This document shows positions 14,510-50,442 of a stretch of DNA of 64,000 bases, in pieces; positions within the stretch are counted from its first letter, which is position 1, and every line of letters begins with the position of its first letter. The stretch comes from Polytrichum commune. Lineage: Eukaryota; Streptophyta; Polytrichopsida; Polytrichales; Polytrichaceae. Location: the NCBI GenBank assembly GCA_950295325.1, contig OX485808.1, positions 14,324,501 to 14,388,500 on the forward strand, in the 5' to 3' direction. Below the pieces are notes generated by a model, which saw nothing but the letters and a program-made list of their open reading frames with translations, did not search any database and was not told the origin of the DNA. Position numbers and translations under genes: made by a program.

Positions 14510-14831
14510 TACACTAAATATGATATTTAGTGTTTGATACACTAAATACGAACGTACACACTAAATGTCAATAACCCTGTGAAAGTAAGTAGCATTATGT
14601 GAAAACTCAAACACTAAATATCAACTATGGTAATATGTGGAAGTTACATGTTTGAGTTTAGTGTTAGTAAGGATATGAAAAACAAGTTAACAATGATAGA
14701 AGGAGAATTCCAACATATCTTCTAGCATACCTTCTAACACTATTTGTCAAGAATTGAAAACTAGTGTTGAGCAAGGTAGGGTGGTAACAACATTAAATAT
14801 AATCAAACACTAAATATCATATTTAGTGTAG
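14510..14831. mobile_element. Related MITE with repeated ACACTAAATA blocks
   Basis: It starts TACACTAAATATGATATTTAG and ends TATCATATTTAGTGTAG, nearly perfect inverted ends. It contains several internal ACACTAAAT/ATTTAGTGT motifs and a GTTGAGCAAGG block recalling the interior of the larger MITE family. It is shorter (about 322 bp) and more diverged, so I treat it as a subfamily. Confidence 0.65.
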
Positions 14832-22291: not shown

Positions 22292-23020
22292 TGAGCTTCG
22301 ACGAGTTGCGACGATGGAACTTAGGGTTTGTATGTGCATATGATGTCCAGCTTTGTTTTGAGCTGCGATGAAATTTAGGGTTGTGTGCATATGTCCAGAT
22401 TTGTGATTAGGTCTGACACCACAAAGGCGGGGGTAGCTCCAAGAGCAGATTCTTCATTCATTCTTTGGGCAAATTTCACTGTGAAATAAGGAAGTTTGTC
22501 CCTGCGAGTTGTATAGTACACCAACGGAAGACAAAAGAATTTTGTCCACCAGGTTCGGGTGAGTTTGTGAATTCAATCAATGCTCAGCCCATTCAATCAA
22601 TCATTCTCCCAAGTGAAAATTCATTCCCAGCCCTTTGGGAGTTTTGTGAGCTGCGATGAAATTTTTAAGGTTGTGTGCATCATGTCCAAATTTGTGGTTT
22701 GTGGTTTTGTGAATTCAATACTCGGTCATTCAATCAATCATTCTCCCGAGTGTATTTTTTTGGCGCTTTGGGAGTTTTGTGGGCTGCGATGAAATTAGGG
22801 TCGTGTGCACATGTCCAGTTCTATGATTTGTGGTTTCGTGAATTCAATAATCAGCCATTCAATCAATCATTCTCCTGAGTTTTTGGGTCTTTCCAGAGTT
22901 TTGTGAGCTGCAATTTTTAAACTGTGATGAAAGTAGGGTTTATGTGCACATGTCCAGGTTTGTCGTTTCGTGAAGTCAATGTTCAGCCCTTCTTTCAATC
23001 ATTCTCCCAACTGAAATTTA
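22270..23020 (+). repeat. Tandem repeat overlapping the COBL stop codon and 3' region
   Basis: The units contain GGAGTTTTGTGAGCTGCGATG, a GTGTGCACATGTCCAG block, GTGAATTCAAT and CATTCAATCAATCATTCTCC. Units begin near 22278, 22355 (partial), 22638, 22768 and 22898. The first overlaps the last codons and stop of the COBRA-like gene. The repeats probably form much of its 3' UTR and flank. Confidence 0.75.
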
Positions 23021-23686: not shown

Positions 23687-24075
23687 CTACACTAAATACT
23701 GTATTTAGTGTCACCAATTCTAATTGTCTTGCCCAATACTAATTGTAAACCCAGGTGTAGTGTCACAACACTAAATGTTAACCCAACATTATTTGTCATT
23801 CCTTGTAAATAATTTCAGGGATTATAGAATTGTAGTGTTGCAATTACTGTCACTTACCAAGTGATTTTTCATCCAAATTTCAATCATCCACGACAACATG
23901 TTATCACATATTAGTTAGGATGCAAATTATACCAAAATTTTGTTTTAATAATTGGCATTTGGATGAACGAAAAGAAAGTTGGGATGACAACACTTATTAA
24001 AAAAACAGTGTCACTATAAAAGTTGCCACAGTGGCATACAATATCATAGGACACTAAACAAAATATTTAGTGTAG
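23687..24075 (+). mobile_element. MITE, ATTTAGTGTCACC family, copy 3 (best preserved)
   Basis: The left end CTACACTAAATACTGTATTT, then AGTGTCACC, is mirrored by AATATTTAGTGTAG at the right end. The 389-bp interior is non-coding and collinear with the copies at 5737 and (inverted) 13635 and 38528. Both tips are intact, so this is the best reference copy for the family. Confidence 0.8.
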
Positions 24076-26749: not shown

Positions 26750-28240
26750 TCTTTAGGTTTCAGAGTTTGCAAGGTGATGTTTCTGCTACCTCATTTTGGC
26801 TCTTTGTTGTTTTAGTGAATTTGCAGTTGATCCAAGTCAAGGAACTTCCTGTATCCACGTCTAAGAAATACTCTTGGCTTGGAATTCCAACTTGCAATTT
26901 TACGTAATACAATCTACATCTCATCACCAAGACACACTTGTGAGCAAGGTTCTCCTAGAATACTAATCACGTGATTAGTACAAGATGATTAGAAAATCCA
27001 AATCAATTCCATAGCCATTTTCCTTAGAATTTTTGGCGCTCATAAGGATATCTTATCATTATGAAAGTGAAGAGATTTCTTCTTTCACCACCAACATATG
27101 GGTCCTAGGCAATCATTATGCATTGGTGAATGAAATATGCAAGTCTATGACAATGGTAGATTTGCAGATTTTCCAATGATGTAGGACAATTTCTCAGTGA
27201 CCTAGGTCAATTGTCCATGCAATCATATGCTTGTAGTGTTTCATCTTAAGTGATCATATAGTAATAATAGGTCCCCCAACAAGGTTGACTATTGAAGCTA
27301 GAATAGTTAACAAATTTTTAAACACGTAGTTATATCTCATTATTTGGGTGTTTGTTCTTAGATCCACACTTAACCACATACCAATCAAATATACATGTCC
27401 CGATCATGAGATGAAGTCAAAGATCAGGTGCATACAATTGAACTTTCTACTTTCCATGAGATTCATGTGAGCACTGTCAAAGTAAAAAGGTAATGGGGTG
27501 ACAAAGAACCAGTGGCAACGACCCGTGATCCTTTTAGTGGATACACATTCTGTATACCAAAAGTAAGCAACAAGCAGCATCAAGAGGTTGATGGCCATCC
27601 AGACTTCCAAAGCAGCAGCTAAGGCCTTCACAATATCAGGTATGTGGCGCTAAAAGAGGGTCCATGATTTAGGTTGCACAAGTTACATATAGAAGTTCTT
27701 TACTATCGAGATGAACTCATCCGAATTCCCTTAAAACATAGACTTCATTGATTGGACTTGGATTGATGCTCAATATGGAGGAACTTCAAGCAGGAAATAA
27801 TTACAAGTGGATTGTTGCCATCCTGTGTAGTTTCTTCCATCAAGGGAAAGAAAGTCAAACATAGTTTCTGAATCATAATCAATTCTACCTAGGATCTTCT
27901 ATCAGGCTTCCAACCCAATTAAGCATCTGTAGTCTATCATTTACGGTTGTGAGCATCTTCAGAATGCTGAAGATTGCAATCAGCAAGAAGAAAGACTGGA
28001 GTTAGACCACCTGTGTCCTAAATAAAGAGGCGTTGCTAAAACCCTAAGTTCAATCCTACTTAGTTCGGGTACACCTTACATGGATGGTGAACCATTCACT
28101 GAATTAATGGAAAGGTGGTGTGTCAATGAAGCAACTGGCTTTAACCTTTGCACCCGCTTCACACTTTTCCTTGGAACTGCAACTTCCTGTCATCAACAAG
28201 CACATTCAACAGACTTGTGAGTAGACAAAAAGGCAAAAAC
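26750..28240. other. Intergenic DNA 3' of RBL, no gene seen
   Basis: No gene is supported; the frames present are short and unlike known proteins. Part of the right side may be the RBL 3' untranslated or downstream region. I saw no repeat structure here. Confidence 0.35.
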
Positions 28241-28594
28241 AGAGTTATCCTTTTAACTCGAGGACTTTTCGTCAGGAGTTGGTCCCCTATGATTTTCCAT
28301 TGGCTGTTTTGCATACAATATCAATGATTTCTTTCCACTTGTTATCCATGTTCAAAGGTAGTGTTTGAATTTGAATGAAGAGGAACCTATTTCAGTTCAT
28401 TGAAGGCCAAACTCATATTAGCACCTCTTGATATGCCAAAATGAGTTTGACCCTCAATGAACCACTATGGAACATTCTTCGTTCAAACCTTCACACTACC
28501 TCCAAGCATGCACCAAGAACTTACCAAACATGGAGGGTGCTGTATGCAAAACAACCTGCTCCCGACCGCAAGTCATGTTCAGTTAGCAGATACC
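28241..28594. mobile_element. Fold-back element, copy A (RBL 3' flank)
   Basis: The left arm starts AGAGTTATCCTTTTAACTCG. The right arm is its imperfect reverse complement, ending GTTAGCAGATACC, with arms of about 150-180 bp around a short centre (GCACCTCTTGATATGCC). It shares GTTGGTC, TTGTTTTGCATACAA and GGTAGTGT blocks with copies B to D in RBL introns. The ends are less clear than in copy B. Confidence 0.7.
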
Positions 28595-28743: not shown

Positions 28744-31700
28744 TCACCATACTTTAAGGTTAAAGTGAAAGGTGTTAACCTCATCATCAGCATCTTCATG
28801 CAGTTCCTGCGGTTCGTGATGTTTTCCTTTTGCGGTAACGCTCAAGTTTCCGCCACTGCCATTGCTTGCTAGACCTTTCATTGAGGGTGAGCCTTTCAGC
28901 TCACCTTTGCCCAACTTTGGAGGTGGTCCAGGTTTTTTAACTGAAACCTTGCGGCCCTTTTCAGCTTGTAGTTCCGCAGCTTTCTCTGACAACTTTCTCC
29001 TCCTCTTAATTCGCCCATTTGGGCCCATTTCTTCGTCTGTGTGACAAAACCCAGAAGATTTATGCCATGTTCAGAGCAGGACATATTGACAAAGAATTTT
29101 GGTAAGCACAAATCAACATCAAAACCCACAATCAATTTGATGTCATGTAGCAAAAAGAGAGTTGGATTGCCACCCAGACATCAATCTGCAGTACCTTTGG
29201 AGAACTATTATGTGCAGTTAACAAATTCTAATTTTAATGGATAAAATTTGTCAAATTTGATGCCTGAGCACACTACAGGAAGATAGTTTTTAAGTATTAA
29301 TGACAATTTGAGGTCAAAGCAAACCATTTTTTATACTGAGCAACACAAAGCACAGAACATGACATTGATATTCATTAGAATTTTGACATGCTTGTGCAAG
29401 CACTCAATCACAAGTTTATCACATTCTAACTGGAACATGAAACAAGTCACAACACTCACAAAAAATATGTAATTTGGCATCTTGATAGCAACTTATTTGA
29501 TGTAAAACTCATTTTTTCAAACTGCATAATAATATAATTTGACCTCAGGGTTTTTTTAGTGTGATAGTTAATTTTTAACTGCAACCCTGAAACTTTTGTG
29601 ACAGTTCGGTTCAACACCAGCTTGATCAACTGCCAGACCTGCACCTCCATTCCTGTTTGTTGAATGAAATTAATTGGGCTGTGAAGTGGTAAGCGCAACT
29701 CCACTTTGTTTCCAATTCCACTTTGTCCACCTTTCTACCTTTCTCTCGTCTGCAGAAAATCAATTCCGGTTGACAGATTGCATACCAGATATTAGAGTTA
29801 TCCTCATAACTCAACGGAATTTTTGGTGGGGAGTTGGTTGTTTTGCAATCAACACCTTCCAGGTTCGCAAAGTTTCCAGTGGATGCTCGGAGGCAGTGTG
29901 GAGGTTTGAACAAAGAGGGTCAATGAGGACTAAACTCCTTTCGCTATGCTGACAAGGTCCTAAAATGAGTTTGGCCCTCAATGAACTGAAATGCGTTGCT
30001 CTTCATTCAAATTCAAACACTACCTCCGAATATTCATCACAAAGTGGAATGCAAGTATTGAGATTGTGTTACAAAACAACCATTGGAGATTCATAGGGGA
30101 CCAACTCCCAACGAAAAGTCCCATTGAGTTGAAGGACAACTCTATTGCATACCAAGGATTAGCTACAAATTTGATACCACTCTAACCTGTAAGAGAGTCT
30201 CTGAAAGTACCTCCAGAGTTTTGCTCTGTTTGCTGGCCGTCAATTTCAGTATCCGAATCTTGAGAATTTCCTCCAGATTCAGACGGGGTAACGCTGCCTC
30301 GAATTTTGGGAAGGGACACCGCTGTATTTGGGGAAGCCGGAAGTGAAGGGGGAGGGGGTGGAGGTGAAGCATCTCGTAATGGGACTGTCGGTAAGAAGTA
30401 GAGTCCATCTTCAGACTCGTCACTTTCGCTGAACGCTGCCACTTTTTCAACTGTCATTATGTCAACATCTGCATCTTCGTTCAATCGAGTTGGTTTGACC
30501 TGTTTAAGTGGAGAAAGCACACCAGAAAAGAAAAAAAAATCAAAATTAGACAGTAAACCAAATGCATATGAAGTCAGTGGGCTCCACATTCTCTGCAGTT
30601 GTACCTGGCTTCTCCATCCACATTCACAGATTAGCTAACACTGGAGTTCACAAATTGGAGTTCATAGCGAACAAGAAAAAGCAACCATTTCAGACCTGTC
30701 TCCCTCAAGTCACTACAGTACACATCTGCCCACACTGTTCACCATAATCAGTGTAGTAAATAATAATATAGTGGATACAAGGAACCCACCTTGTCGGCGT
30801 CAGGCATGATGTCAAACTCATCCTCCCTCTCCACATACTCCTCATTCTCTTCAAGCTCTTTAAAGTCTGGTGCAAAAGCGCTCCAATTTTCAGTGTAGTC
30901 TTTAGCCCATAAATATATAACTCCAGACATGGACACAGAGGCTACTACTGGGCGTGTTGGGTGCCAAGCCAGGTCAGCAAGTCCTTCTTTCTGACCTTCC
31001 AATATCCGTGCCAGCTGCCCAAAATTTCTGTGTCATGCAAACATTGTTAGCAAAGCCAGCCCATAGTAAAGTTCCCCTTTCACAAGACACTAGCAAGTTA
31101 GAGTTCAGTTGCACTATCAAAGAGCAAGAACCCTAAATTTTAAAAACTCAACCAGCCCCTCCAGTATCTTTAAGATCAAACATTTCGATACACATTACAC
31201 GTTACAATCATGTTCAAGCCATTCAGAGTGCCTGGAGGTGAAAGAATGGATGCTATATCTTTACAAGAATTTGATGATTTACAAAACTAATGTTTCTTGA
31301 TTTTCAATATGGAAGCAAACAAGATTCTTTGAGAAAACTTGGAGGAGAGGAGGTTCCTCCAATTATGTGCACATATGTAATTTGAGACGTATTAGAAGAT
31401 ACCCAGTGTTACAGGTGTATAAAAACCTCATTACAATAGAGTTATCCTTTACCTCAATGGGACTTTTTGTCGGGAGTTGGTCCCATATGATTTTGCATTG
31501 GTTGTTTTGTACACAATATCAATAATTTCTTCCTACTTGTGGTGCATGCTTGGAGGTAGTGTTTGAATTTGAATGAAGAGCACCTTAATTTGGTTCATTG
31601 AGGGCCAAACTCATATTAGCACCTCTTGGGATGCCAAAATGAGTTTGACCCTAATTGACCGAAATAAATTGTTCTTCGATCAAACCTCCACACAGCCTCC

Positions 31701-34700
31701 AAACATGCACCAAGAACTTACCAAATATGGAAGGTGTTGTATGCAAAACAACCAACTCCCGACCAAAAGTCATGTTGAGTTAGAGGATTACTTCAATAGG
31801 ATGCTAATGACTGCCTGCAAAATTTTATGGGCTCGTGTAAGGAAAATAATTAAAATGAAATTGTTACCTATTCCAAATGTGGATTTTATGCTCTCCCTTG
31901 TTAGCGGATGCTCCAACCACACACTCTCCATCTCCGTTAAAGCATGCAGCTTTCCAGTGCATCTTGTTAACAGCATCTTGGAAATCTTTGGTGAATTTGA
32001 GGCACTGAACATTTCGTGACATTCCCGAGTAATTCGTCGTCCCTTCCGCTTGATCTATTAAAGAGGCTAAGGCCTTCGCACCAGCACCAGCTCTTGGCAA
32101 GAGGTTCTCAAACACTCGTAAAATACGGTCCGTTGAGTTTGTGAGAACATATTGACCATTGCGACTAAATACGATTTGCCTAATTGCAGCATTTCCTGGA
32201 ACCTGAAACAAACAGATGGAAGTTTTTTGTGAGCAGTAGACTCCATGCAAAAGATATGCTTGAATCTTCTGGAAGTACATGAATAGAAGTGAGCCTGCCA
32301 AACACCACGATTTAAGAGATGCTAATAAAAGTAATGGAAGCCAAAACCTTCTCAGTTCAGGATTTCAATATGTCAAGTAGCATTCTTCCAGGGTAAGAAA
32401 ACAACTTAGACATTAATTCTCAACAAATTTATTAATCAAATAGTTTAGAATCTTGCCCTTTGTGATCATGGCAACACAGTAAAGTTTCAGAGCTTGGGAT
32501 TGAATATATAGAACCTATGAACTACTTTATTGGCCTGACAGTAAAATGCCAAGTGGAATTTCATCACCTCCCAATTTTACGGTTACAAAGTTAATACCTC
32601 TGGGTTTATTCCAAATTTACGCTAAGAGTATGTGGCAAACCACATTGGTATGCCAACTCTTCCTATAAAAAGATATGGTTCAGACAAAATACCAACCTGC
32701 ACACAGGTTCGAGTTTGTCGAGTCTCTGTATCAATAACCAATATCTCGCCTTTAAAATTCCCAACATAGATGAGGTCTCCTTTCTTGTTGAAACTAGCTG
32801 CTGAAGGAGAATATGGAGCATCCCCGAGTTTTCCTGCACGAACTTGTTGAGTACCATTTTCACCATCCCCTGAAGCAACCACTACAGGAAGTGGCTGAAT
32901 TTCCCCTGCAAAAATATAGAACAATTGCTCATTATTCAAAGCATACAAAACCAGTTGATGCCAAAAACTCACACTCGACGTCTCATAACACCAAAGTAAT
33001 CTGATGAAAGAAAAACCTTCATGAGTGTATATGTTCCTCAGAACTAAAACAAGACAAAGAGGATTTTACATTCAAGAACAGCACCACCCTATTAGAGTTA
33101 TCCTCTAACTCAACACAACTTTTGGCTGTGAGTTTGTTATTTGCATACAACACCTTCCATATTCAGGGAGCTTTCAGTGCATGCTTGGAGGTAGTGTGGA
33201 GGTTTGAATGAAGAACATTCTATATCGGTACATTAAGGGTCAACCTCATGTTGGCATGCCAAAAGGTGCTAAAAAGACTTGGCCCTCAATAGAACCGAAA
33301 TAGGGTGCTCCTCATTCAAATTCAAATTCAAATACTACCTTAGTATGCACCATGCGTGTTTAGAAATAAAAATAAAACTTGGAAATGAATTATTGATATT
33401 GTATGCAAAACAACCAATGGAAAATCACAGGGGACGAACTCCGCACAAAAAGCCCCGTTGAATTAAAGGATAGCAGTATTACATCCACACTTTCAAGGTT
33501 ACACAAAAAACTGGTCTTCCTTGCAAGCCAACAGCAAATATAAATTACAGATCAAACATAAAATACGTACCTGTCTCAAAATTCACTAGGATGGGTGCTC
33601 CAGACATTGGACAGGCAAGACAGAGAGAAGGCTGGACTGTTCCTGGGTGCAGCCGCGCATGTAGGGCAGTTTGTTGTAACGTAATTGAGCCAATTTTTGT
33701 ACCCTTTCCCACATCCCATAGTGCAAGTGTTTTCTCGGTATCGGCCGCAAGAAGACGATGGCCACATTTTGACCAGCTGACACTAGTAATTGGGGCTCCT
33801 ACATCTCGACTCCGTAGTTCTTTTGCAACACCTCTTGTGTCGAAATCCCAGATGATACACGCTCCGTCAACACACCCAGCTGATGATAAACATAACAAAT
33901 TAGATTGCAGTAAATAATGACAAAAATTTGTCATGCCTTATAAGACAACAACTTTGAACTTATTTGATGCGGAAATTGAGAGTGTATTGTTGGCCCTAAC
34001 AATGTTTGCGCATAACATGCTGCAGCCAACAAACCCTTTCAAAGCAGGAATTTGTAAAAACATAAATTGAACCTCAGGAGCATAGTCAATTCCTGGGTTA
34101 AACAGAGATATAAATTTAAAGCAAACCTATTCACTCTGATAACAAAAACTGTCTTAATCGTGATTAGTGCCTTGATACACATCCACTAATCCAAGTCAAA
34201 CAACAAGCGCTAAGGCAGATTAGTTGAGGGAGCTGACTGCAATGATGCAACCAATTCCAGAAAAAAGAATCCCAGAGATATGCATTTATGTTCTTTCAAG
34301 ACATGGATTAAAATTGGGTCACAAATCTAAACACATCTACATGTGAACGAGACTATATCCTTTCGATTGGTTAATTGATGTTATTTAGACTCTTCCAGAT
34401 TTTCAATACCAAAAATTTCGTCATGCTCATCACTGTCCCCTGTTGGTGAAAATGCCGTGGAATCCTCAACTCCTTTACAAGAATTTCAGGATATTTAAAC
34501 CTCCCCTTGTTTTCTATTTTGTTAATATGAAGTTTAAACCGCTCTTGGTAGTATTGACTTGGGAATTGTGAAATACACAAAAACAGTGTTAAATGCAACT
34601 CAACACCCAGTCAGTTAACGGTAGAATAAGAACCTGCAAGAAGCGTTCCCCTTCGATTAAATGAGATGCACTTTGTGACTCCGTGCTCCAAATACTCTTC

Positions 34701-35969: not shown

Positions 35970-36010
35970 GTGTGTCTGTCTGTCTCCGTCTGTTTTCTTT
36001 TCCCTTGTTT
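35856..36010 (-). promoter_or_regulatory. RBL 5' leader/promoter with long (GA)n tract
   Basis: Immediately upstream of the RBL start codon (minus strand). It contains a (TC)n tract at 35925-35965 on the plus strand, about twenty units, which reads (GA)n on the coding strand, followed by GT/CT-rich sequence to about 35992. Such pyrimidine/purine tracts are common in plant 5' leaders and core promoters. The start site is not defined. Confidence 0.5.
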
Positions 36011-36929
36011 CTTAAATCTACAAATGCCGTAGATTTTAGGGTCTCGGGCTCTCCTGCTCTTTTGTGTGTATTCTCCTTGAGTCCTTAAACTGTTGAGAGT
36101 AAAGGATCTTGGGGCTTCTCTTTCCCTTGTTTTCTCTTGTGGGTGAAGAGCAATGTTGGGATTGGTTGGGGCAAGGCGAGCGGAAGGACTTTATTTGCAT
36201 TGTTATTTTGGGTGATGCCAAGTGGCAGCAGCTTGCGATTCTTGTATTCGGAAGGCAACCAGGGCAACCAGCACACTGAGGATTGCCACTATCTCAATAG
36301 GGATTGATTGCCTCTTCGTCTATAATTGCCTGAAAGGAAATTGGTAGAGACTAAGGCGTCAAAATCAAAGAAATTGAAGAAGGAAAGGCAATGGTCGTTG
36401 AGATTGTTGTAGGCACGGTGGAATCTGTTCAAGGAAGAGAGAGTTGACTCTTTCCAAAGCTCGATCTGCCTCTTTTCAAAGGCCTTCTCCTTTTTATTCA
36501 TCATCAAAATGAAGCAAGAGTGGGTGGGTGGGTGGGTGGGATTTTTCTACATCACAAGTCTATTGCATTACTAAACATAGCATCCAATATTTTAATCATG
36601 GATTTAGTGCTATGTTCTACACATCCAGTAAGTTGATTGGAACTTCAACAAGGAATAGGTATGCTTATCAAAGCAGCTAGATAGCCCGCTATGTTTCTTT
36701 GCTTTCAAATCAAAGCTTAGTAGCAAGGGTTGACATAAAGGTATAAAATCAAATACTATGATGTCATGATACATGCCTTGGTATTTGTTACACACCTCTC
36801 GCCGGTTGGCAATTGGTTTCACGACAACAATCTCTCAGAGTAAGGAATTGAAGAAAATATAATTTATTTCTTTGTGAGACCACTAAGTACAATCCAAGAC
36901 CAAATAAGGTTTGGTCAAAGAAGCTCTAC
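36011..36929. other. Intergenic DNA upstream of RBL
   Basis: No gene is supported. A short GGTG-type tandem repeat (GTGGGTGGGTGGGTGGG) lies near 36520-36540. The remainder is unremarkable. Confidence 0.35.
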
Positions 36930-37105
36930 CACCCGACCATAGGAGAGAGAGCTAACAACCAAAAAGCTCCTCTCTCCTCCCCCGAGCTTCCTCTTATGCC
37001 AAAGGCATTACTTTTACTTTCTATCTTTACATATAGTAAAAGTATTCTATTCATAGCTCTATCTTCTAGTACTACTATGAATCTTCATCTTTGGTTCTTC
37101 TTAAA

Positions 37106-37520
37106 CCTTCTTCAAGTTGGAACTGTCCAACTCCAACTCAGTTTACCATTCCATCTTCTAGTTGGAACTGTCTAATTCCAACTAGTTCATCCATTCATTC
37201 TTTTAGTTGGAACTGTCTAATTCCAACTAATTCATTCATTCAATCTTCTAGTTGGAATTGTCTAATTCCAACTAGCTTTATCTATTCATTGAGAGTTGTC
37301 TAACTCCAATGAATGACATTCATCTTTCCAAATATGGAGTGGTCTAACTCCGTGCACCTCATCGAGAGTTGTCTAACTCACGTGCACATGTTCTCAATTG
37401 GAATAGTCTAATTCCAATGCACTAAATGCAGAGCTGTCTAACTCCAGTGCACATGTTCTCAATCTGGAGTTGTCTTACTCCTATCCATTCATCTTCAACT
37501 GAGAGTTGTTTAGCTCTCAT
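37106..37520 (+). repeat. Array of about eleven small hairpin units, left arm
   Basis: Each unit has a core close to TGTCTAA between short complementary arms, for example TTGGAA/TTCCAA, GGAGT/ACTCC and GAGAG/CTCTC. Units are spaced about 30-50 bp apart by CATTCATTC- or GTGCACATGTTCTC-like sequence. Several units differ from each other by paired changes on both arms that keep the hairpin. Confidence 0.8.
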
Positions 37521-37994
37521 CTTTCTGTGCTTATACACTGGCACATGTAGTTAGAATATTCCTTAATAATTCTAGTTACATTACAGTATCAAATATTCAT
37601 CTCTTATGGCAACTAAGTAAAACTCACAAGGCATACTTTTCCACATCTATGTGATGTAATGAACCTTGAGAAGCAAATCTACCCTCTATGTGCCTTAGTC
37701 ATATCATAGCCCATGACACATACCATTTCTTCCTTGCCCTACCTCCTAAACCAACTCCCACATGTTTCACCAAACAACCAGGGACATCTAGAACTCAAGA
37801 ATTTGAGTACACATCATGAAGCGCATCGCAAATAATGCTCAATGTACATCACAAGGTACATATCCCATGTACAAATTGAATCATTCGTTTTTTTTTTTGT
37901 AAAAATTGTTGTGAGAAGATTTGCAAGCCACATCTTCAACACATTTAACAAGAAGTGAAGACAAGTGAAGCCCAAGAGAAGACAAGAGAATGGT

Positions 37995-38225
37995 CAAACT
38001 CAATTTTTTTTCAAAACTGCCCTTTTTGGGCATATATTTAAAAAAAATTAGCACATACATTTTTTGGTGCATGGTCATTCTTCTTGGTCCACATTTGGTT
38101 TATACCTAGTGAGGGGCCCAAAGGCTTTGTAAATTGAATTTTTTTTTAAGAAATTGGACCATAGAAGTTGGACCATCAAGTCGGACCATGGAAAAAGGCC
38201 ATCTCCATGGTCCGACTTATAAGGT
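37995..38225 (-). mobile_element. Partial inverted copy of the 641-1234 element
   Basis: Read on the minus strand, it contains AAGTCGGACCATGG, the hairpin partner CCATGGTCCGACTT, AACTTCTATGGTCC, GCCTTTGGGCCCCTCACTAG and GGACCAAGAAGAATGACCAT, in the same order as in 641-900. The other end of the element is missing. It sits inside the 36.9-39.7 kb structure. Confidence 0.65.
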
Positions 38226-38527
38226 ATGACATGTATTTCAAGGTTCATATGTGAATAGTACTTTGGAACATGCAAGGGAACCTCAAGAAATATTGTAAGC
38301 ATTCAGGAACGTTGTGAGCATATTTAGTCAATACACATGTTCTTTCATACTTATGAATCTTCATTCTATACACCAAAAGACACATTGGATTGAAATAGGC
38401 CAATTCCTTCAAAAACCTCCATCATACGACATTTGAGACCAAAATGCCATACTACCAAAAACATGACATTTGGATAATACGACACTTTCTTGCATGATCA
38501 AACATGTCTCAATAAAGATGGAGAATA

Positions 38528-38690
38528 GTAATTGCAACATTGTAAATCCATAATGCCATTTTTTTTTACAAGGAATGGCAAATAATGTTAGGTTAACACT
38601 TAGTGTTGGTGACACTACATGGGCAGTTTACAATTCATACTAAGCAAGACAAATAGAACTGGTGACACTAAATATGATATTTAGTATGCT
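38528..38690 (-). mobile_element. MITE, ATTTAGTGTCACC family, truncated copy 4
   Basis: It matches the second half of copy 2 (13635-14018) on the plus strand: AACATTGTAAAT, ACAAGGAATGGCAAATAATG, AAGCAAGACAAATAGAACTG, then GGTGACACTAAATATGATAT. The other half is absent. Confidence 0.65.
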
Positions 38691-39154
38691 TTCACTACAT
38701 CGTCATTCACCCATGGTGTAAATTACATTAGGCCATCCAAGAAAGAGTGAGGGTATTATTATATACGAACGTATCTCTCATTCATCCAACATAAAAACCT
38801 TGAAATAGTGTGTACTTTGGAGATGTTTTTTGAAGTTTATTTGATACCAAATTTAGTTTTAAGGACCCCAAATTAGTCTAGACCAAGGCATTTGAGATGA
38901 ATCGACCACAAACCTATAGGGGGTCAAGCTTCATGTTGGATGGGTGAGAGGTACACTTGTATGTGATATTTCCCTCTCTCCATCTGAGTCTAGATTTTAA
39001 ATAAAGGTAAAATCCGTTTTTTCATCCTAGAAGTCTCGTTCATCGCAGGAGATGGACTTCTATGATATACCCATATTAAAAGGTCTAATGTTGGATTATG
39101 CAAGAAATAAAGACTAACCATACTTTGTTGTACTTGGCATATGTGCAGATGATG

Positions 39155-39480
39155 TTTGGAGTTAGACAACTCCAAAGAAGGAATTGGGTCAAACAACCCA
39201 AGAGAGAATGGTGCACAAGGGCTAGACAACCCACGAAGGATTTGTGCATGGGAGTTAAATAACTCCAACTGGGATTTAGACACCTCCCTCTGAAAGATCT
39301 TTGTGTCGGAGTTAGACAACCCCAACTAGAAGATATGAATCAGAATTAGACAACACCTAGCGGATGGATGTTATTCATTGGAGCTAGACAACTCTCAATA
39401 AATAAATTTAGTTGGAAATAGACCATTCCAACTAGAAGAATGGATGAATGTATCAAGTTGGACAGCTCCAACTAGAGGAT
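39155..39480 (-). repeat. Array of about ten small hairpin units, right arm
   Basis: This is the inverted partner of 37106-37520; the core reads TTAGACAA on the plus strand. Units include TTTGGAGTTAGACAACTCC (with AAA completing the arm), GGGTCAAACAACCC, GGAGTTAAATAACTCC and TTGGAAATAGACCATTCCAA. Arm sequences vary between units while remaining mostly complementary. Confidence 0.78.
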
Positions 39481-39690
39481 TGTGATTGAGCCAAAGATAA
39501 GAAAGGACCACATGTTGAAATGAACTCTGTATATAGATAAGGAAGCTTAAGTCTAAATTTAGTGATACTTGAGACTTCAAAAAAGCTTGAGTATTGTGGA
39601 TAAAGATGGATAAGACTAGGAGTGCCTTTGGGGTATAGAAGAAAGCTCAGGGAGGAGAGAGGATCGTCTTTGGTCTCTCCTATGATTGCA

Positions 39691-42258
39691 TGGTTCGAGC
39701 TCAAAGCAATCACAATAGTTATGAAACAAATACACCGCATCCCCATTAACTATCTTATTATACAAACAAAATTTAAAAACAAACAAGCCCCCGTGGACCC
39801 ACCATAGAAGAAATACCACTCACGTTAAACATGCTACTTAAAGAAGCCCACCCCCTACAAGGTTGGAAGTACCTCTACCTTGAAGCTTGGTAAAACATGA
39901 TCAAAGTATGGATGAATGGACTCCCATTCACATTGGTCTAGGAATACACATTGATGTTGTTTTATTTTATTTTATTTCAAGCAGTAGAGAGGAGGGAAGA
40001 GGAGGGGAGCTCATCTATCAAATAGTACCCTCACCATAAACTGTCTAAGTGATCTGACCTAGCTTGCAATATTTGGGAAGCTTGCAATATTTGGGAATGT
40101 GGTTGCTAAACTTAAGTTATGTGTCATATTATGGAATATAATTTGGTTGATGCCAAGAATCAGAAAAAGATTTGATTGCTAAGTAAGGGTGTGTTTCCAT
40201 GTAGGTTGTCTGCCCACCAAATTCTTGTGGGAATAAGGTCAAACCTGTCCCAATGTATATGGGATCTGGTGGGGTAGGATTTGTATGTGCCAACTAGCTA
40301 CTCTCATCTTCTCTAATCTGGACTCACCCACTAACCTCCTCCTCCTAAAATCGGTCTTCAATCCTTCAATGACCAATACTTGTAGGTTAAAAAAATGCTT
40401 TAGTGGGCGCATGGAAGTCTAGCAGCCCGTATTCATGGCCCTCCATATTCTAGAGGCCCCCAGAATGTGGTTGGTTGGTGGCTTGTGCTTATCTACACGA
40501 GAACACCTCCAACCCATTATTATCTAGAATCTAGTGGGTGAGCGGTCTACATGGAAACTCAACCTAAATGAATGTTGTTTTTCTTAGTCGGACACCTATA
40601 TTTGATTGGTGTGTGATTCCATAAGGATAAAAGAAAAAAATACCATAAATACACATGTTTCATATTGGACTACATCTTCAAGTCTCATTAACTACCCCAC
40701 ACTCAATATTGAACACAATCGGGAAAACCAATATGTTCAGTTACAAAATCTCCCCCAAATCTTCACTGCACAAAGCTACGCTCAAAGGCCCACAAGTTGT
40801 GGTCAACAACTACAATACCGTGGTAGAAGACCATAATGCCATGGATGGCATGAGGTCCATACACCTATTTCGGTTTGTGAGCTAAGGTAAGTAGTCCCCA
40901 AAAGTGACACCCTCGGTGTTTTGTTTGTTGATTTTGGGTTTTTTAACATTTTTAGACCTTGCAAAGAAAATTGACCTAATCAACAAATGGGTTAGAAACA
41001 TGCCCATCAAATTTATGTAATGCATGGCCTATAAACCGTCAAAGTGCATTACATCATTGAGTTTTTCTGGCAAGGGTCCCGATGTTTCCAAGCCAACCTG
41101 AAGATCTGGTGCCAAACCTTTGCCACCTAGGACACCACATAAGGTGAGTAAACGTTCAAACCCAACCCTAGTATAAAGCCCTTGAGCCAGATTTGATAAA
41201 ATCAAGCGATCCTATCGGATAAAATTCTTACAGTTCAAGCTGGCCCTCAATCTAGCCCTGAGTATAAAGTGGGCCACTTATTCAAAAGCACTTTATCCCA
41301 TGCAAAGGTGGGGCATGGCCAAGATGGATAGCACAAATGGATGCCGTTATGTAACCACTATGGTTTGTGGAAACTTCACTTTCAAATTCCATATTTATTC
41401 TCTTGTATAGACAGACCCTCATGTAAAAACTCTCAATTCATGTCCTTGTAACGGATGTAACTTGCAGATTGTAATAACAATATTGTTTTCTATTACATAT
41501 GTGGTTATGTTACTACAATGCCTATGATACATGATTTGCATGTGTAAGGCCCATGTTTCAAAGTAGAACTTTATTTCTTCAATTCTTGGACTGGTGATAG
41601 ATTAATATTTTGCTTCCAAATACAGGAGATGTACCCAAATTCCTCATGGCAGTGACAAATAGGATTAGCATATAGAACTCATGAAGTTGTTAACACAATG
41701 TATCAATTTGCATAACCAGAGTAGTACAATGCCAGCATTTTTCCTCGATTTGTTACTTGTGAAATTTACAATTGCTACATGTGGATGCAAAGGCATGCAC
41801 AATAGGACTTAAATGATGCTATTAATCCAGACTGTCAACTGATGTGAAACTTGATATCACATGCATCAAGACATTTGATCCCAAAACTTGGAGTATAGTT
41901 ATGACAATGGCTAGGCTAGGCTGCATCACACCCTCTGAAAGGAAGTCACATAAAATTGCTTCATTTTTGGTTGAATACCAACTTGATTTATATATTACAG
42001 CAAGTTTGAAAAATTGATGTGCCAGGGCCCCAAAGTGTCTCCTTGCACGCTGTCAGATTTCCCTAACTAATTACAAGGTTGCTTGCTACATGGCACCTTA
42101 CAGGACAGGGGCACTTGACATACTACTTGCCCCTGAAAAGAGAGACTTGCTAAGTTGGAAAAGAAATTCTAACTCACTGCTAAGCTACAAAGCAATGTTG
42201 TGTTTAGGGTTTAGGGTCCTGTTTTCAGGACTCAAACACAACATCAATAATCTGCTCC
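39691..42258. other. Intergenic and 3' flank of BRR2
   Basis: I see no second gene between the inverted-repeat element and the BRR2 stop codon; short frames near 40606-40885 are not convincing. A short telomere-like run, TTTAGGGTTTAGGG, lies at about 42202-42216, only about 45 bp beyond the BRR2 stop, possibly in its 3' UTR. Confidence 0.4.
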
Positions 42259-45200
42259 CTACTCCTCCATAACATTGCCATCATCCTCAACATCTGCTGC
42301 CTCCTTTACATCAATAGTGAACTCATACTCCTGGTCACAGCCAAGATATGCATCACACATGAAGAAAAGTGTGTAAGTTTTCCTCCCGACCTCGTTGGGC
42401 GCAGTGAAATCGAGCTTCACTTTGGACCTCCGCTGCAACGAGACGCGCTTGATAGCGAGCAGCTGGTTGCTTTTTGGATCACCCACAACCAGCCACCACC
42501 CTTCCTCTTTCGGTTTGGGGAATCGCGGAGCATCCACAGGGCCAAGATCTTGCCGACCTTCCATCTCCCTCTCCAGAGTCACCTGGAGTGTGACAGTCTC
42601 TCCAGCCGCAATGTCATCGGTGTCCAAAACATCGTGGGCGAGATCAATATTCGGAAACCTATTGCAAACCCTGGCAATGTCCATTAACTGTGCATCGCTC
42701 ATTTGCAACAACTCCCTCCTCTCATCGTCTTCCATCTCCACGAGATCAAACACCGTCTCAATGGGCTTGCTTGGAGCTTCGGCACACCTCTTTGCAAGAT
42801 CCTTCGTGAAGTAGGGTAGCTGAAGTAGAACAGAATCCCGCTCCCAAATACCTTGGGTAACCATCTGACTTAGCTCCATAGCCGCTAGCGCAGGATGCAA
42901 CCACCCAGAGCTCGATATGACATCCACCATCGCTTGTATCAGTCGGCTTGCATCAATAAGAATCTCTTTCTGATCCAACGCAAGGTTTCCACTCACACCG
43001 TGCCTGGCGAAATGAGCTTGCAGAAGAGCATTAGCCTTCACATGTGGGTCGGTGAATTTTGGTTTGTCCATGGAAAACCGTTGGTGCATCACAAGCTTTC
43101 GGACAAGTTCATCTTCCCCTGGCCTCATTGGCAACTGTGCATATTCAGAAGCAGATGCAAGAATCTCAAGAAGGCCCTTCAGCTTCGTCTTTGCAGTGAG
43201 TGAAGAACTGAAGAGCTCAATAGTGGTGTAGCTGATGTAATAATATGCAGCAATCATACCCAGATTGAGTGGTGACAGGTCCATGTCATCTTCAATTGCC
43301 ACACACTTACTCGACTCCAGATCTGACAAGGTGGATTCCACAAGCTCTGACAAATGATCAGACAAGTGGCGGTGGCTGACACCTTGCAGATTGTAGTAAT
43401 TAGGATTCTGAGTAAGGCGCCGGTACATGAATGTCCAAGTGAGATAGTCCACAGCATCTTGCTTGTTCTCGATGGTGCGGACCACAACTTCAGCATTCAA
43501 ATGGTCATGTAAATAGTGATCCAAGTGGCTCTCAACAGGGAACGGCTCGTACAGGAACTTCTTGTAATACTCCTTGCGGGGGGCATGACAAAGAATAACA
43601 CATTTCCCAGATGTATCAACTTGAGGACGGCTAGCCCTTCCCATCATTTGAAGGAGGTCAGTAATAGGATAATCTGTATGAGCATTTTCTCGCCCATCAT
43701 AGAATTGAGTTCCCATTACAACAACCAAATGCGCTGAAAGGGTCATCCCCCAACACATACTACTGCTGGCAACACATACCTGATATGCAACACAGTCAAC
43801 AAGTTAATTGATTAGATGAAAACGAGGAAAACCCAAGCACATGCCATCACTAGAATGCAAGATGGGAAAACACTCTGTTCAAACCCAACAGCCCAGAGAG
43901 CTTTAGAACCTCAACCATTAATATTCACAGCAGACCACAACATGCAATCAACTTCAGTAGATTTGTTGAGTTTTTTAAACCAGGTTAAGTTTGGCTGAAA
44001 CACTTTCACAACAACCAACACAATAAATAATAAATTGAGATCAAACTGAGAGATTCCAAAAGGGCTGCAACACCACACCTGTATAGCTTCTGCAGCAAGT
44101 AGACTTTGTACCACTTCTTGTTCAATTGCACTCAATCCTTCGTGCAAATAACCAACCCCCTGACTCAGTGCATGGCTAAGAGCCTCATCCTTTACCTTCG
44201 CCAAAAAGGGAGCTAGATCTGCCTCTGTGCAGTGCAAGAAAGGCGATCTTTCACCCCCATTTACAGTGGCATATGTAACCAAATCCAAGGCTGTCAGGCG
44301 TGCATGCTTCCGAGTGGGTACAAAAATAAGGGCAGGTTCTTGCTTTTTCACATGCTGTACAATGGCAGTATATGTGGGCTTCGTCATTGCTTGCATACGA
44401 GCCTCAAAATTTGCAATGTCAACCCCCTGGATGTGAATTTCTAATGGCACTGGGCGGACTCCTGGAGGGAAGTTGAAGAGCCCATGAGAACTTGCTCCAA
44501 TCCATTCTCCAAGATCCTTTGCATTTGCCAGAGATGTTGAAAGAGCCACAATACGAATTTGATTATCCGTTTGGCTGCCTATATAGCGCATTCGAGAAAC
44601 AATCACCTCCAGTACAGGGCCTCCTTGTCCCCCAATAAGATGTAGTTCATCCACCACAAACAAACTCACCTGCATGATACAGGTCACATTTTAGTCAAAC
44701 ATGGAATTTTTTTTCCCACCACTACTGTTCATGCCCAATCCTTCAAAGCAACTGCCAACTTTTGAAGAAAATTAAAATTAAAGAATGAAAAAATAATAAT
44801 AATAAAAAGGGCAACTAGCAATAATTTGCATACACATTCGTAGTAGCTTCAATACACATGCTTGAGCACAAGGTCCCCCGTGAAGTTGGCAATTTTTTTA
44901 CTAAAATGTAAATAATGATAAATATAAATATGTTTTGGAAGTAATTTGTCCTCATACCTGTTGAACATGTTTGCGTTGTTTCCACCGACGAGAAAGGACA
45001 TCCCATCTCTCTGGAGTACTGATAATGATCTGACCCTTCTCTAGCAACTTAATGTCAGTAGCTGTCTCCCCGGTAAGCTCAACCACTTTCACTCCTAGCA
45101 TTCGACCAAACTTAGACTCCCAATCACGAAGCCGATCTTTAGCTAGCGCTTCCACAGGTGCAATGTAAACACAACGGGCACCAGCTGATTCTGCTTTTTG

Positions 45201-48200
45201 TAGCATCCGCAAAACAGCAAACTCTGCACAGATCGTTTTCCCACTTCCTGTTGGAGCTGCCACCAGGACATTGTCATCTGTGTTGTACAAAACAGGAAAC
45301 ACCTGCAATCCATATCAGGTGTCCATGTCAGTCACCATTAGGAAACCATAAACATGTCAAGATAGGGTCATCCCACTACAATGAGGTTTGCAATGACGTC
45401 ACCTTTACATGGAATACAGTTCAAAGAGGGTCAGCTGGAAATGCTACCTGTGTTTGAATAGGGTTGAAATGACGGAACTTCTGATAAAGGCTCTCGTATG
45501 AAGGATTTCGAAGAGCAGAGACTGGTAAAGGCTGAAGATCAAGAAGCTCTGTGGGTGGTGGATACTTCTCAGGCAAAATGAGGTGGCGAAATGAGACTGG
45601 CAGAACTGTTTCTGAACCCAGCCATCGGTCTGACACAACCCGCACAAAATATTGAGGTGGCAATGGCTCATAAATAGGAACCGTGAAACTCAGGTTGTGG
45701 TCCTCCTCAACATACTGCATTTTCAGTAGGAAATACTCATGATGCAAGATATTCTCCCCATCATTGTCTTCAACAATAACCCAGAAAGATTCCACATAAC
45801 CATGATACTTTTCGTCCCACTGAAAATCAGGAGTAATTGTGAGGTCGACTTTCAAGACAGAGCGGGTGATGGGTTGGACATGAGCTGCCAGCTCCAGCTT
45901 GGGAAACTGATGAATGTATCTGTGAATTGATTTACCCATCTTTGGATACCGAATAAGTTCACCAATCTCTTGCGAGGACAAATCATAATATCGTTCCCAT
46001 GGTAAGTCTTTCTTCTCAATCTTGCTGAGAATGTCATTTGGTATACCCTTAAACTGCCTTAAAGGCGTCTGGCTGCTCCACATGCGCCGATTCACCATCT
46101 TACAAAGAGTGAGAGCTTTCTCAGCTAGTTGTGCCCATCCTCGTTTCAGCACAATCTCAAACAGAGCTCTCATCAACCGACCCGCACTCTGTCATAAAAT
46201 CAACAACAAATTAGACTTGCAATGAGTTCATCAGTAATTTATATCCATGAAGTCACCAGAAAGGCAAGTTACAAAAGAAAAAATACAGCTCTTGTGATAA
46301 ATTTGAGAGGGGGTTACAAGATGACCAGAACACAACAACAAAATTTCTTCAGGTGGTCTATAGAACCACAATAAGAAAACCAACTGGAAGGCAAGGGCAT
46401 AGAAAAGCAAGACATCAGGTAGATACACCCAAGGAGCTCAAGAGATAATACTAGAAAGTCAGGATGTACCTGTGTAATGAAAACCATGTCTGATGTAAGG
46501 GATAATCCCTCAAGCTTTAGCTGCGAGATGTAAGCCTGCAACAAGACATTGATTTTTGCACTTGGTTCCTCTAAGCTCTCTTTCACAGGTATGGGTACCC
46601 GATCCAAGAGCTTCGCAAGCTCCATTTTCTCTTCCTCCCGGACTGTCACAAATTTGAACTCCTCTGAGAGCGAAAAGAGGCGACACAACTCAATGTCACC
46701 CATTGTGGGCTTCAAATGCTCATTATATGTGGCCATTGTGCCATGAGAAATGTAGTAATAACTAGCAATGCGTCCCAGATCAGTCACCTGGAAGTACCCA
46801 CTCTTGCGATCATACTTCACTAGATTGTTCCTGTCCAGTACTGTTGCTGCCGAGTGTACCTGCCAGCACCATCACAAATCTGAAATTCAGTACACTACAT
46901 ACTCCATTAGCCAATAATGCACTAAGTGCTGACAAACATGAAGAGCGACAACATATGCATTGCACATTACGTGATGTATACCAAAAAAGATGAAAAAAGC
47001 ACCGTGCAGTTGGCACTTTCCATATATTGCCTCCCAGTACCATCATCAACAGAAAATTCTGCAACATACATGTATACTTGAGAAGGAACGGAGAAAACTA
47101 AAACTGTGATACAACAACCTAAACACAGGGCAAAAATAAGATCACTTACAAGATCAGCACGGCGCTCCTCTAATGTTGGGTCAGCATGTAGGGCTTCATG
47201 ACTAACACCATAAAGGGTTGGGTTATCCAGCATCCGAATAAAGAGGTAAGTATAACCCAACCAGGTGCAAGCTTCACGAGCATCCTGCACACTGCCTAAG
47301 ACAATCTCTGCATTCAGATTGTCTGCAAGCTTTGATATATACTGACTCTCGATTGGAAGCTGCTGGTTCATCAGGGACAGGTAGTACTGAAGCTCACTGT
47401 GACCAGTAATGATGATACCTTCACCATATGTATCAAACTGTGGCCGTCCAGCTCGCCCCAACATTTGCATAACATCCAATGGACTAAGCTCAGTCCAAGC
47501 ACCTTTCTCTGGATTATAAATCTGAGTTCCCTTTATAATCACAGTATGGGCAGGGAGATTGACTCCCCATGCAAGAGTGGCAGTAGAAACCAACACTTGA
47601 ATGTGCCCATCTGCAAATAAATCCTCAACCAAAGTACGATCAGCCCTTGCCATGCCTGCATGATGGATAGCAAACCCATAAGGCAGCAAATCCTTCAAGT
47701 CAGTACTCTTCACTACCTCATTTTCCTTCTGCAGAATTTCTCGGCTAGCACTATCCTCCTTCAGAAAACGCCCCAACGTGTCGTTTGCTAAAGCTGTATC
47801 CCGTATTGCACGGCCAGTTTTAGCTGTCTCTTTTCTGGAGTGAACAAAGATCAGCACTTGATGCTTGCCAGCTACTTCCATAACCTTTTCATAGCAGATA
47901 TCATTCATCAGCTGGAAACGTTGCAAAGGCTTTCGGACCGTGACTCCAATATACTGCTGTGCTAAAGGACATGGGCGATAACTATTGTCAAAATGAAAGA
48001 GCCCTTTCTTCTCATCAACCTTGAGGAACAAAGCTACATCCTTGTAATTTGGTAAGGTGGCTGATAATCCAACCAAGCGAATCATCTCCTGAGTTGTTTC
48101 AATTTGTCTCACTGTCCTGGCAACAATGCTCTCAAGCACAGGGCCTCGATTATCGTGTAAAAGATGAATCTCATCAATAATTAACAGTTTCACCATTTGA

Positions 48201-50442
48201 GTGTATGTCCTGTCCCCAGACTTTCTAGTGATGATATCCCATTTCTCTGGTGTAGTAACAATAATTTGAGTTTCCTCAATTTGTCCCCTTGACAGAGTAG
48301 CATCTCCGGTGAGCTCCTTCACAGAAACTCCATAAGGCTCTAAACGTTTAGAGAAGTTACCCACCATCTCTGCAACCAGTGCCTTCATGGGCGCTACATA
48401 GACAATCTTGAATGAACTCAAATCAAAAGTACCATCAGCCTGTTTCCTCATACCAAGCTCATGTAAAATAGTGAGCATGGCTACATTGGTCTTTCCAGCA
48501 CCTGTTGGTGCACAGAGAAGAAGATTTTCAGCAGTGAACAGAGCTGTCTCATAAACTCTGCTCTGAACTCTGTTCAATGTCTTCATGCCTACGAATGCTG
48601 GCTGAGCCCAGTCAGGCATATCAGTGATTTTCACAAGCTCTTCACCATCTGCAAATGGTTTGGGTTTTAAGTGGGGAACATGTACTTCCTCATAGCCCTT
48701 CTTTGGAGTTCTGTATGAAAGAGGAGGTAGTTCACACCTGACAAACAACCACAAAATTCACATGTTGAATATGCAATTATAACCAGGTTAGAGGCAACTG
48801 CGCCTCCCAGAAAGTGTACTCCTGTATAGATTTGCAATATCATCTTGCAGAAATTTTGGCAATGTCTACAGATAATAATCCCCACATACTTTGGGCAATC
48901 TTGGAACTCCTGAAAACAGTGAGTGTTATTTTTTATGTAGGTTGTAAACAAAGCAGACAATAAACAGATGCAGCATATTTACGCAATTGTGTCCTTAATT
49001 TGGACTGACCGAGTTCATCTAAAACTAGGAAAAGCCCAAAACCCTTAACCTTGAAATGTGTTCAAAATGTGTGTTTACCTCTTGTTAGCCATTAGCAGTC
49101 CCCCTTGATGGAATGTGAGCTGCTCCAAGTCCAGCAATTGTCGCTGGCCCTTCAACCACCCGCCATCGCCTCCTCCTCCTCCTACGTCTCGATCCATCCG
49201 TCGCCCTTTATCTTCTGTCTCGCCACCATCGTCCCTCAATTTCCTAGCCTCCTCCCTGATACTCCTCTCCAGATTTTTTTGTCTCTCTTTTGCAGTTGCC
49301 CTAGTTGCATGCAGCTGCTCAAGAATACCTGCCAAGGCAACGCCTCCCCTGCTCATCTCTTCTTCTATGCTCTTCTTGGCATCTTCGTCTTCAGCTCTTG
49401 CTAACCGAGTGCACCACACTACCTTAAGGCGATTTCTGAGCAAAAGTTTGATCAAGTCGAACTTGTCGTAGTCCAAAAGCATCACCAAACGATTCTCAAC
49501 ATCCCGGTCATCGCCTTCAGCCAACGTACTAAGGACTTCCTCTGCGAGCTTCTGGCTCTGCTGAGGGTCAATATCTCCATGTGCTTGGGAAATTTTTCTT
49601 TGCAACCAATATGCATCTATGTCCTGAACATTCAAACCCTCATCTGCTTCTTCCATTTCTTCATCATCCTGCCCACCCATTTGCATAGCAGATGATTGTC
49701 GAGTATCTTGACCATCTTCTTCTCCATCGCTGTCTTCCTGCACCTCATCTAAATCACTTTCGTCATCCTCCTCATCTTCCTCGAACTCCACAGCAACTCC
49801 AATATCATCATCTAAAGCTTCCCCTGCACCTCCCGTCCCTGCATCCCCCGCCTCCGAATAATCACTAATGAGTTTCCCTATGGCCACCAGCTGCCCAAAC
49901 CTCTCATTCGACATAGAGTTCAACAGCTTCTCAATCTCCTTCTTTTTATCGGGATCCTTAAACTTATCATTCTTCAAAACCCCGAGTACTTCATCCGCAG
50001 CCCCACGCAGGATATCCTGCGGCTGGTCACCGAACTGTTGCTGAATTGTACTAAGTAGGGCTTCATAGGCTGCCCTCGTCTCCTTCGTCTTCGGCCTATA
50101 CATCCCATCGTCATTAAGCGACAATACACTATCTTCCTGCATCCCGCGCATCCGTTTACTCGCCTTCTTCGGTGCCTCCCCATTTACCTTCTCTTTCTCC
50201 TTGAGCTCCCTTTTCTGCCGCGACTTCGTCAGCTTCTCCTCTAAGTCGCCAGGCCGTCCCCGTGACACCCGGTCACCAAACGACCGAGGATCAATCTTCC
50301 CATACAAACTCTCCGGCTCTCCTGTAGGCTCATGTGTATCCCTCGGCCGTGTATCCGTTGTCAACACCAGACTTGAATTCGCTCTGTATTCATACTGCTT
50401 GAACCGAGCGTGGGCCTCCGCTCCTCCCCCCAAATGTGCCAT
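42259..50442 (-). CDS. BRR2: BRR2, U5 snRNP 200-kDa DExH-box RNA helicase, seven coding exons, complete
   Basis: BRR2 is the U5 snRNP helicase that unwinds U4/U6 during spliceosome activation. Inferred minus-strand exons are 49079-50442, 47150-48737, 46470-46859, 45448-46188, 44958-45302, 44079-44669 and 42259-43779. Every junction is GT-AG, phases close, and the product is 2,179 aa, close to the usual plant length. Seen: an acidic N-terminal region including a PWI-like helical part and an E/D-rich stretch; first helicase cassette with [10 protein letters not shown] (about 531-539), IIDEIHLL (DEIH about 643-646), GLSATLPN and [11 protein letters not shown]; a first Sec63 unit; second cassette with APTGSGKT (about 1377-1384), [10 protein letters not shown] (about 1482), ALSTSLAN and [11 protein letters not shown]; and a C-terminal Sec63 unit. 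The substitutions in the second cassette (DELH, STSL) are normal for BRR2. Orthology is firm; a paralogue elsewhere cannot be excluded. Confidence 0.96.

Follow-up and report, generated by a model that had tools for sequence, protein, structure and literature searches.

What kind of structure would place two opposed arrays of short hairpins, with a constant centre and arms that differ from unit to unit, at one locus of the Polytrichum commune genome? We have addressed this question in a stretch of 64,000 nucleotides from contig OX485808.1 (assembly GCA_950295325.1, positions 14,324,501 to 14,388,500 of the forward strand; hereafter the window), for which a first-pass annotation had proposed, at positions 36930..39690, either subterminal transposase-binding dyads of an undescribed element or a transcribed hairpin-array RNA. 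Two inward-facing hairpin arrays (11 units on the plus strand and 10 on the minus strand) and the interior between them are contained within ~2.8 kb (~36923-39700), and the earlier range falls short of the full extent, as the inverted similarity continues slightly outside it. The account that we cautiously favour is that this segment is a decayed, non-autonomous, foldback-like terminal inverted repeat (TIR) DNA transposon remnant, whose arrays would have served as protein-docking sites. A second array, worn and one-sided, is found in another sampled stretch of the genome (L045). The principal parts of the segment are the following:

36923..37105, plus strand: left leader, external to the array; putative start of the element, ~36922-36923; inverted similarity over 36922-37029
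37109..37527, plus strand: left array of 11 hairpin units
37528..39147, no strand assigned: interior; no recognised coding sequence in the frames scanned; repeats shared with the window at 38004-38218 and 38527-38685
39148..39479, minus strand: right array of 10 hairpin units
39480..39700, minus strand: right leader, external to the array; putative end of the element, ~39700-39701; inverted similarity over 39601-39701

A constant centre between covarying arms

All units follow one plan, in which a variable arm, an eight-base centre, (N)TGTCTAA, and a complementary variable arm together form a dyad of roughly 16-28 bp. Cores start at 37123, 37168, 37213, 37258, 37296, 37340, 37369, 37404, 37434, 37470 and 37506 on the plus strand, and at 39465, 39425, 39391, 39353, 39319, 39283, 39262, 39229, 39196 and 39169 on the minus strand. 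The asymmetric core keeps a constant orientation: in each of the 21 units it points away from the nearer end, towards the interior. What the first-pass annotation had described, namely eleven left and ten right units sharing a TGTCTAA-like core with complementary arms that differ in matched fashion, is present in full, including the arm pairs GGAA/TTCC, GGAG/CTCC, GAGAG/CTCTC and GGGT/ACCC. The individual units are:

37115..37138, plus strand: unit L1
37160..37183, plus strand: unit L2
37205..37228, plus strand: unit L3
37250..37273, plus strand: unit L4
37288..37311, plus strand: unit L5; stem extends outward beyond a one-base bulge
37332..37355, plus strand: unit L6
37361..37384, plus strand: unit L7
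37396..37419, plus strand: unit L8
37426..37449, plus strand: unit L9
37462..37485, plus strand: unit L10
37498..37521, plus strand: unit L11
39154..39177, minus strand: unit R10
39181..39204, minus strand: unit R9
39214..39237, minus strand: unit R8
39247..39270, minus strand: unit R7
39268..39291, minus strand: unit R6
39304..39327, minus strand: unit R5; its counterpart is L045 unit f
39338..39361, minus strand: unit R4; Watson-Crick at 2 of 8 stem positions
39376..39399, minus strand: unit R3; its counterpart is L045 unit d
39410..39433, minus strand: unit R2
39450..39473, minus strand: unit R1

Column information across the 21 units reaches 2.0 bits at T4 of the centre, 1.7 at G3 of the centre and 2.0 for the G at -3, and stays below 1 bit in the arm columns past position 3, with the exception of -8 (1.01) and -11 (1.21). 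The core is not an unpaired centre in all units: in 7 of the 21, two extra Watson-Crick pairs inside the core close the unit to a four-base loop, and 4 further units reach such a loop with one G-T (the loop being mostly GTCT, typically GAGTT-GTCT-AACTC). In the longer stem with a four-base loop, 73.8% of 210 cells hold standard pairs, G-U counted as standard.

Covariation of the arms among units is, on the whole, real. The observed 113 Watson-Crick cells (out of 168) exceed the 88.7 +/- 5.3 obtained by swapping right arms among the 21 units (20,000 permutations, p = 5e-5), a signal that is weaker among 9 dissimilar units (from p = 0.007 with six pairs to 0.066 with four pairs). When the partner is slid by 1-3 columns, the share of paired cells drops from 66.7% to 31-44%. 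The covariation score, 0.297 in the true register, is 0.08-0.15 in the slid ones, and cells with both-sided change number 23 vs. 11.9 +/- 2.7 in shuffled data when G-U is taken as paired. An excess is also found against a tree-aware null, a check of the kind proposed in the first-pass annotation: placing the parsimony number of changes randomly on three trees gives 77.6-84.2 cells vs. the observed 113 (p = 2e-4 to 4e-4), and 4.1-4.2 further Watson-Crick pair types vs. the observed 9 (p = 0.0014 to 0.0018), although these p-values are rough because the unit trees, built on 22 to 36 columns, are poorly resolved. Least favourable is the count of pairs with both-sided change (9 vs. 6.6, matched by 15 of 500 shuffles), and for the longer stem the same count is 7 vs. 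5.8, matched by 145 of 500 shuffles.

Could such pairing have been selected at the RNA level, in a transcribed hairpin array or long foldback RNA that is diced into small RNAs? Consistent with this possibility, predicted folding yields z -10.2 for the left array and z -5.4 for the right one, the two arrays are partly complementary to each other, and the right-arm differences of L045 unit c mostly leave, by eye, G-U pairs on the core strand. However, the complementary strand of the left array gives nearly the same folding (z -9.5), Rfam gave no match up to E = 1 in 36000-41000, and G-T mismatches, which a constraint on RNA ought to enrich, are just as frequent as A-C ones (15 each among 210 cells). 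With these counts being equal, nothing points to the core-strand RNA as the selected form, and a DNA-level feature fits. This branch of the first-pass proposal is accordingly one that we regard as improbable.

Ends, further copies and surroundings

The inverted layout is most evident in local alignments of one side with the other, which score 192 for the arrays (shuffled 25.3 +/- 3.8) and 71.5 for the leaders (shuffled 23.5 +/- 3.8). Outside the arrays this similarity is limited to ~100 bp per side (36922-37029 with 39601-39701) and stops at 36922/39701, the outer flanks being unlike each other (27.0 vs. shuffled 26.5 +/- 3.3); the innermost parts score 36.0 in the inverted comparison (shuffled 28.6 +/- 3.0, the highest shuffled score being 42.5). 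Left-right identity falls from core (0.72) to arm (0.62), spacer (0.58) and leader (0.55), a ranking taken from one MAFFT alignment, which the cores may anchor. The earlier description of arrays inside long terminal inverted repeats therefore stands as regards inverted ends, but these are imperfect and short beyond the arrays. The long inverted repeats with internal repetition that a foldback element should carry at its two ends are present in this imperfect form, and the segment is classed as foldback-like rather than placed in a superfamily. At the putative ends, a weak candidate for a target-site duplication is seen:

36915..36922, no strand assigned: left copy of the candidate duplication, TCAAAGAA; 7 of 8 matches to 39701-39708; weak
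39701..39708, no strand assigned: right copy of the candidate duplication, TCAAAGCA; weak

The score of this pair (4.8) lies just under that of 5/5 matches nearby (TCAAA and CAAAG inside; also AGCTC), and shuffles attain the best score, 5.0, with p 0.044 when the ends may vary within 2 bp and 0.36 within 10 bp. Known target duplications of Mutator-like elements (MULEs) have a length of 8-11 bp.

Further copies were sought in 26 stretches of the genome, 251,000 bases in all (21 stretches from C1, 4 from C2 and 1 from C3); three contigs of the assembly measure 77.9, 70.3 and 59.2 Mb. The array at L045:4337-4596 matches the right array at 76.7% over 197 columns and the left array at 78.9% over 171 (blastn), and its unit order aligns with L2-L5 and R1-R5. 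A unit model of 36 columns (model R1), searched over the window and the 26 stretches, yielded 15 matches at E <=0.01, of which 13 fell in the window and 2 in L045, the other 25 stretches giving none. When the limit was relaxed to E 5, the model recovered 14 of its own 21 units and matched L045 five times and L042 and L055 once each. With a sequence-only profile (E up to 10), all 21 own units and 4 in L045 were recovered, the best match elsewhere (E 0.33) being at 27994-28010 of the window. The array family is dispersed, and the two-sided structure is seen once; a second copy, on whose existence the first-pass annotation had made its reading depend, is present, but as a one-sided array. Prokaryotic or viral relatives were also considered, but none of the 32 loci from the pattern scan carries more than 2 hairpin units on either strand, and we take them to have matched by chance; no plasmid match was found for the left array.

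Other repeats occur in the interior and elsewhere in the window. An inverted-repeat stretch at 38740-38985 (arms 38740-38795 and 38930-38985) has relatives in L042, L045 and L050. Another inverted repeat pair, 667-876 / 38004-38218, is 86% identical, has its second copy inside the interior, and terminates in the palindrome AAGTCGGACCATGG...CCATGGTCCGACTT. Members of a second palindrome family, ACACTAAATAnnnTATTTAGTGT, lie at 13637-13661, 13994-14015, 14511-14533, 14807-14829, 23689-23711 and 24051-24073 and, judged by their spacing, may mark both ends of ~320-385 bp repeats; related 160-bp pieces are found at 5727-5884 and 38527-38685 (the latter in the interior), with matches in L036, L043 and L052. 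Within 5.2 kb, four copies resembling miniature inverted-repeat transposable elements, ~330-400 bp long and alternating in orientation, occupy 28262-28591, 29807-30147, 31434-31803 and 33085-33480. By Pfam, the minus strand of the window carries a gene for a BRR2/SNRNP200-type helicase, in pieces from 42259 to 50442, and the stop codon of its last piece lies ~2.6 kb from the region of the arrays, on the downstream side of the gene. The plus strand carries a COBRA-like gene, in pieces at 20645-22291, directly followed by a tandem repeat with a period of ~129 bp (22577-23012). COBRA-like proteins belong to plants, and the DNA was accordingly treated as that of a land plant.

Possible docking arrays, template copying and a proposed decay of pairing

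Inward arrays of short sites at both ends resemble the sites recognised by transposases or their helper proteins, which is why we cautiously take the present arrays to be former docking arrays. The element would have encoded a protein, either its transposase or a TNPA- or VANC-type accessory factor, that recognised the fixed centre together with the inner GGA/TCC, and many sites per end would have contributed binding strength and specificity and helped to join the ends. The arms may have stayed complementary while the units multiplied, whether through some importance of the dyad or of an extruded hairpin or through the copying of one arm from its partner by template switching, and the present copies look decayed. 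The first-pass proposal of subterminal transposase-binding dyads of an element fits the anatomy. The units, their orientation, the covariation among them, the inverted layout and a second, one-sided array are observed, whereas mobility, protein binding and a function of the pairing are presumed.

Other class assignments were weighed as well. A CACTA element was set aside, since CACTAAGTACAATC lies at 36881 but nothing near the right end corresponds to it even with 3 mismatches allowed; CACTA (En/Spm) elements have CACTA...TAGTG termini and a 3-bp duplication as their hallmarks. No transposase of CACTA tnp2-type or MULE origin was seen in the 10 frames scanned; the missing tnp2-type transposase does not exclude a CACTA relative, as it is expected for a non-autonomous copy. 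A long terminal repeat retrotransposon was rejected, since the arms are inverted and the whole-window search (>=60 nt) gave no flanking direct-repeat pair. The first units read SSSWNCLIPT-like in one frame, and a coding repeat was likewise rejected, as the spacing is not consistently a multiple of three and no Pfam family scored above the cut-off; a sub-threshold Pfam match to Bfc (E 0.063) was disregarded.

Several observations weigh against a former transposon with docking arrays. No Pfam family scored above the cut-off in the 10 frames scanned out of 27 stop-to-stop frames listed, and no convincing target-site duplication was found at the putative element ends. The order of left vs. right units is not significantly colinear across the whole array (p = 0.15), and left and right units are matched differently by two alignments (pairwise vs. 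three-way with L045). The L045 array is the sole further one among the sampled stretches; it has no opposed array over 5.4 kb downstream and no leaders upstream (26.5 and 32.5 vs. shuffled 25.5 +/- 3.6 and 26.5 +/- 3.8). Finally, among six position-matched unit pairs (L2-a, L4-R2, L5-R3, R3-d, R5-f and, less surely, L8-R7, where a, d and f are L045 units), one of the 18 changed stem pairs is compensated and the other 17 have changed on a single side, and for this reason the copies are not visibly under selection. This count omits L045 units b, c and e, units lacking a clear partner and positions paired in neither unit, and both comparisons involving R3 (L5-R3 and R3-d) cover the five innermost pairs only, owing to the bulge.

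Left-right matching of units over larger numbers of cells gave results that depend on the method. In 80 cells matched by dynamic programming, 3 changes are compensated, 11 are both-sided in another way and 26 are one-sided (compensated p 0.02-0.07), and simple shifted matching yields 11 compensated, 13 other both-sided and 35 one-sided of 100 cells (compensated p 0.0002); the pairwise alignment agrees with the shifted matching and the three-way alignment with L045 disagrees. We rely on neither compensation count, because the colinearity of the units is not significant. In our reading, drawn from the six matched pairs, the pairing arose during unit multiplication and is now decaying.

Paired change had been read in the first-pass annotation as the product of selection on a hairpin or on a dyad protein-binding site. 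This inference does not follow, as template switching can also yield paired change, and a sequence-specific site alone predicts no free paired change. Palindromes may prime template switching, in which an arm serves as the template for its partner, so that paired arm changes arise as a mutational by-product with no selection; the array could then be part of a transposon all the same, and the covariation would be silent on function. As far as the accessible part of a published description goes, this mechanism makes and keeps perfect stems, can keep the loop, and is associated with enrichment of four-base loops (PMC8794818), and 11 of the 21 units close to a four-base loop, G-T counted. The scarcity of compensation in the six matched pairs (1 of 18) is in line with it as well. 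On the other side stand the single orientation of the asymmetric centre (21 of 21) and a core identity between the two ends that exceeds that of arms and spacers, both of which argue that something beyond palindrome upkeep kept the unit. Furthermore, in the left-right matchings over larger numbers of cells a single unit comparison holds 1 to 3 compensated pairs and not whole arms, with the matching of units itself being uncertain. We therefore consider template switching alone a rather unlikely source of the paired changes, albeit one of appreciable weight. The same mechanism qualifies the result on gene conversion between neighbouring palindromes, raised in the first-pass annotation as a possible source of the covariation: the latter exceeds its nulls, but arm-to-arm template copying could yield paired change, and an origin by conversion may therefore still apply.

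A non-transposon origin, in which a short satellite-like array was duplicated in inverted form at one locus and later copied elsewhere, would agree with the weak termini, the lack of a solid target duplication, and the one-sidedness of the second array, which is without a recognisable leader. We see little chance of this origin, as ~100 bp of non-array leader is similar at both outer edges and ends there, and the array is rare (1 place in 251,000 sampled bases).

A variant of the transposon account, which we hold to be very doubtful, is that the mobilising protein would read the fixed asymmetric loop of an extruded hairpin on a stem of any sequence, in which case selection would keep the pairing and the loop and not the letters of the stem. 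Bacterial REP-associated enzymes read hairpins and may be likened to this. If true, it would represent a structure-read end-recognition array in a plant transposon.

Relation to known systems

Units with a constant asymmetric centre and with arms covarying from one unit to the next were not found in the literature searched, a limited collection of partly accessible texts, and a letter search of literature for four unit motifs gave, among the matches listed, only subjects unrelated by title. If the family is confirmed, each element would provide ~20 sister sites for separating sequence-reading from shape-reading of transposon ends, because the fixed motif is central and the varying part varies in pairs. 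The arrays also present a test case of whether template switching alone can maintain palindromes within DNA transposons.

Foldback elements of plants include FARE, Tnr8 and SoFT. According to the accessible portions of published descriptions, the ends of the foldback element Tm1 contain a variable number of a ~14 bp motif, with a 9 bp target duplication (PMC3169594), that of Tetris is 8-10 bp (PMC4079207), and Galileo has many sites for the THAP domain of its transposase inside long, internally repetitive ends (PMC3688188). The likeness of Tm1 and Galileo to the present arrays lies in the repeated motifs or binding sites of the ends, whereas repeat units that are themselves covarying dyads do not appear in these portions of the Tm1, Tetris and Galileo descriptions.

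In VANDAL elements (Mutator), VANC proteins read motifs multiplied by tandem repeats, and those of VANC21 sit upstream of VANA21 and in introns (PMC5735166); they do not form two inverted terminal arrays, and the words palindrome and hairpin are absent from the text of that report. Hairpins attributed to template switching (PMC8794818) share stems with paired changes and kept loops with our units, but the available text describes a mutational mechanism for RNA genes and not an element family.

Plant DNA transposons with subterminal arrays of stem-loops have already been published (PMC2613891), and in this respect soybean CACTA elements resemble the present structure. As described in the accessible parts of two reports, Tgm1, Tgmt* and TgmR* carry subterminal arrays able to form stem-loops, with 12 stem-loops at the right border and 2 at the left in Tgmt*; a TNPA-like protein is thought to bind them, the motifs diverge between families, and the subterminal repeats of maize Spm are recognised by TNPA (PMC2613891, PMC4219821). 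The difference lies in what is conserved: in Tgmt*, as far as these parts extend, it is a motif, TTGGCAG, in stem-forming repeats, whereas in the putative Polytrichum commune element it is the asymmetric centre, between arms that vary in pairs.
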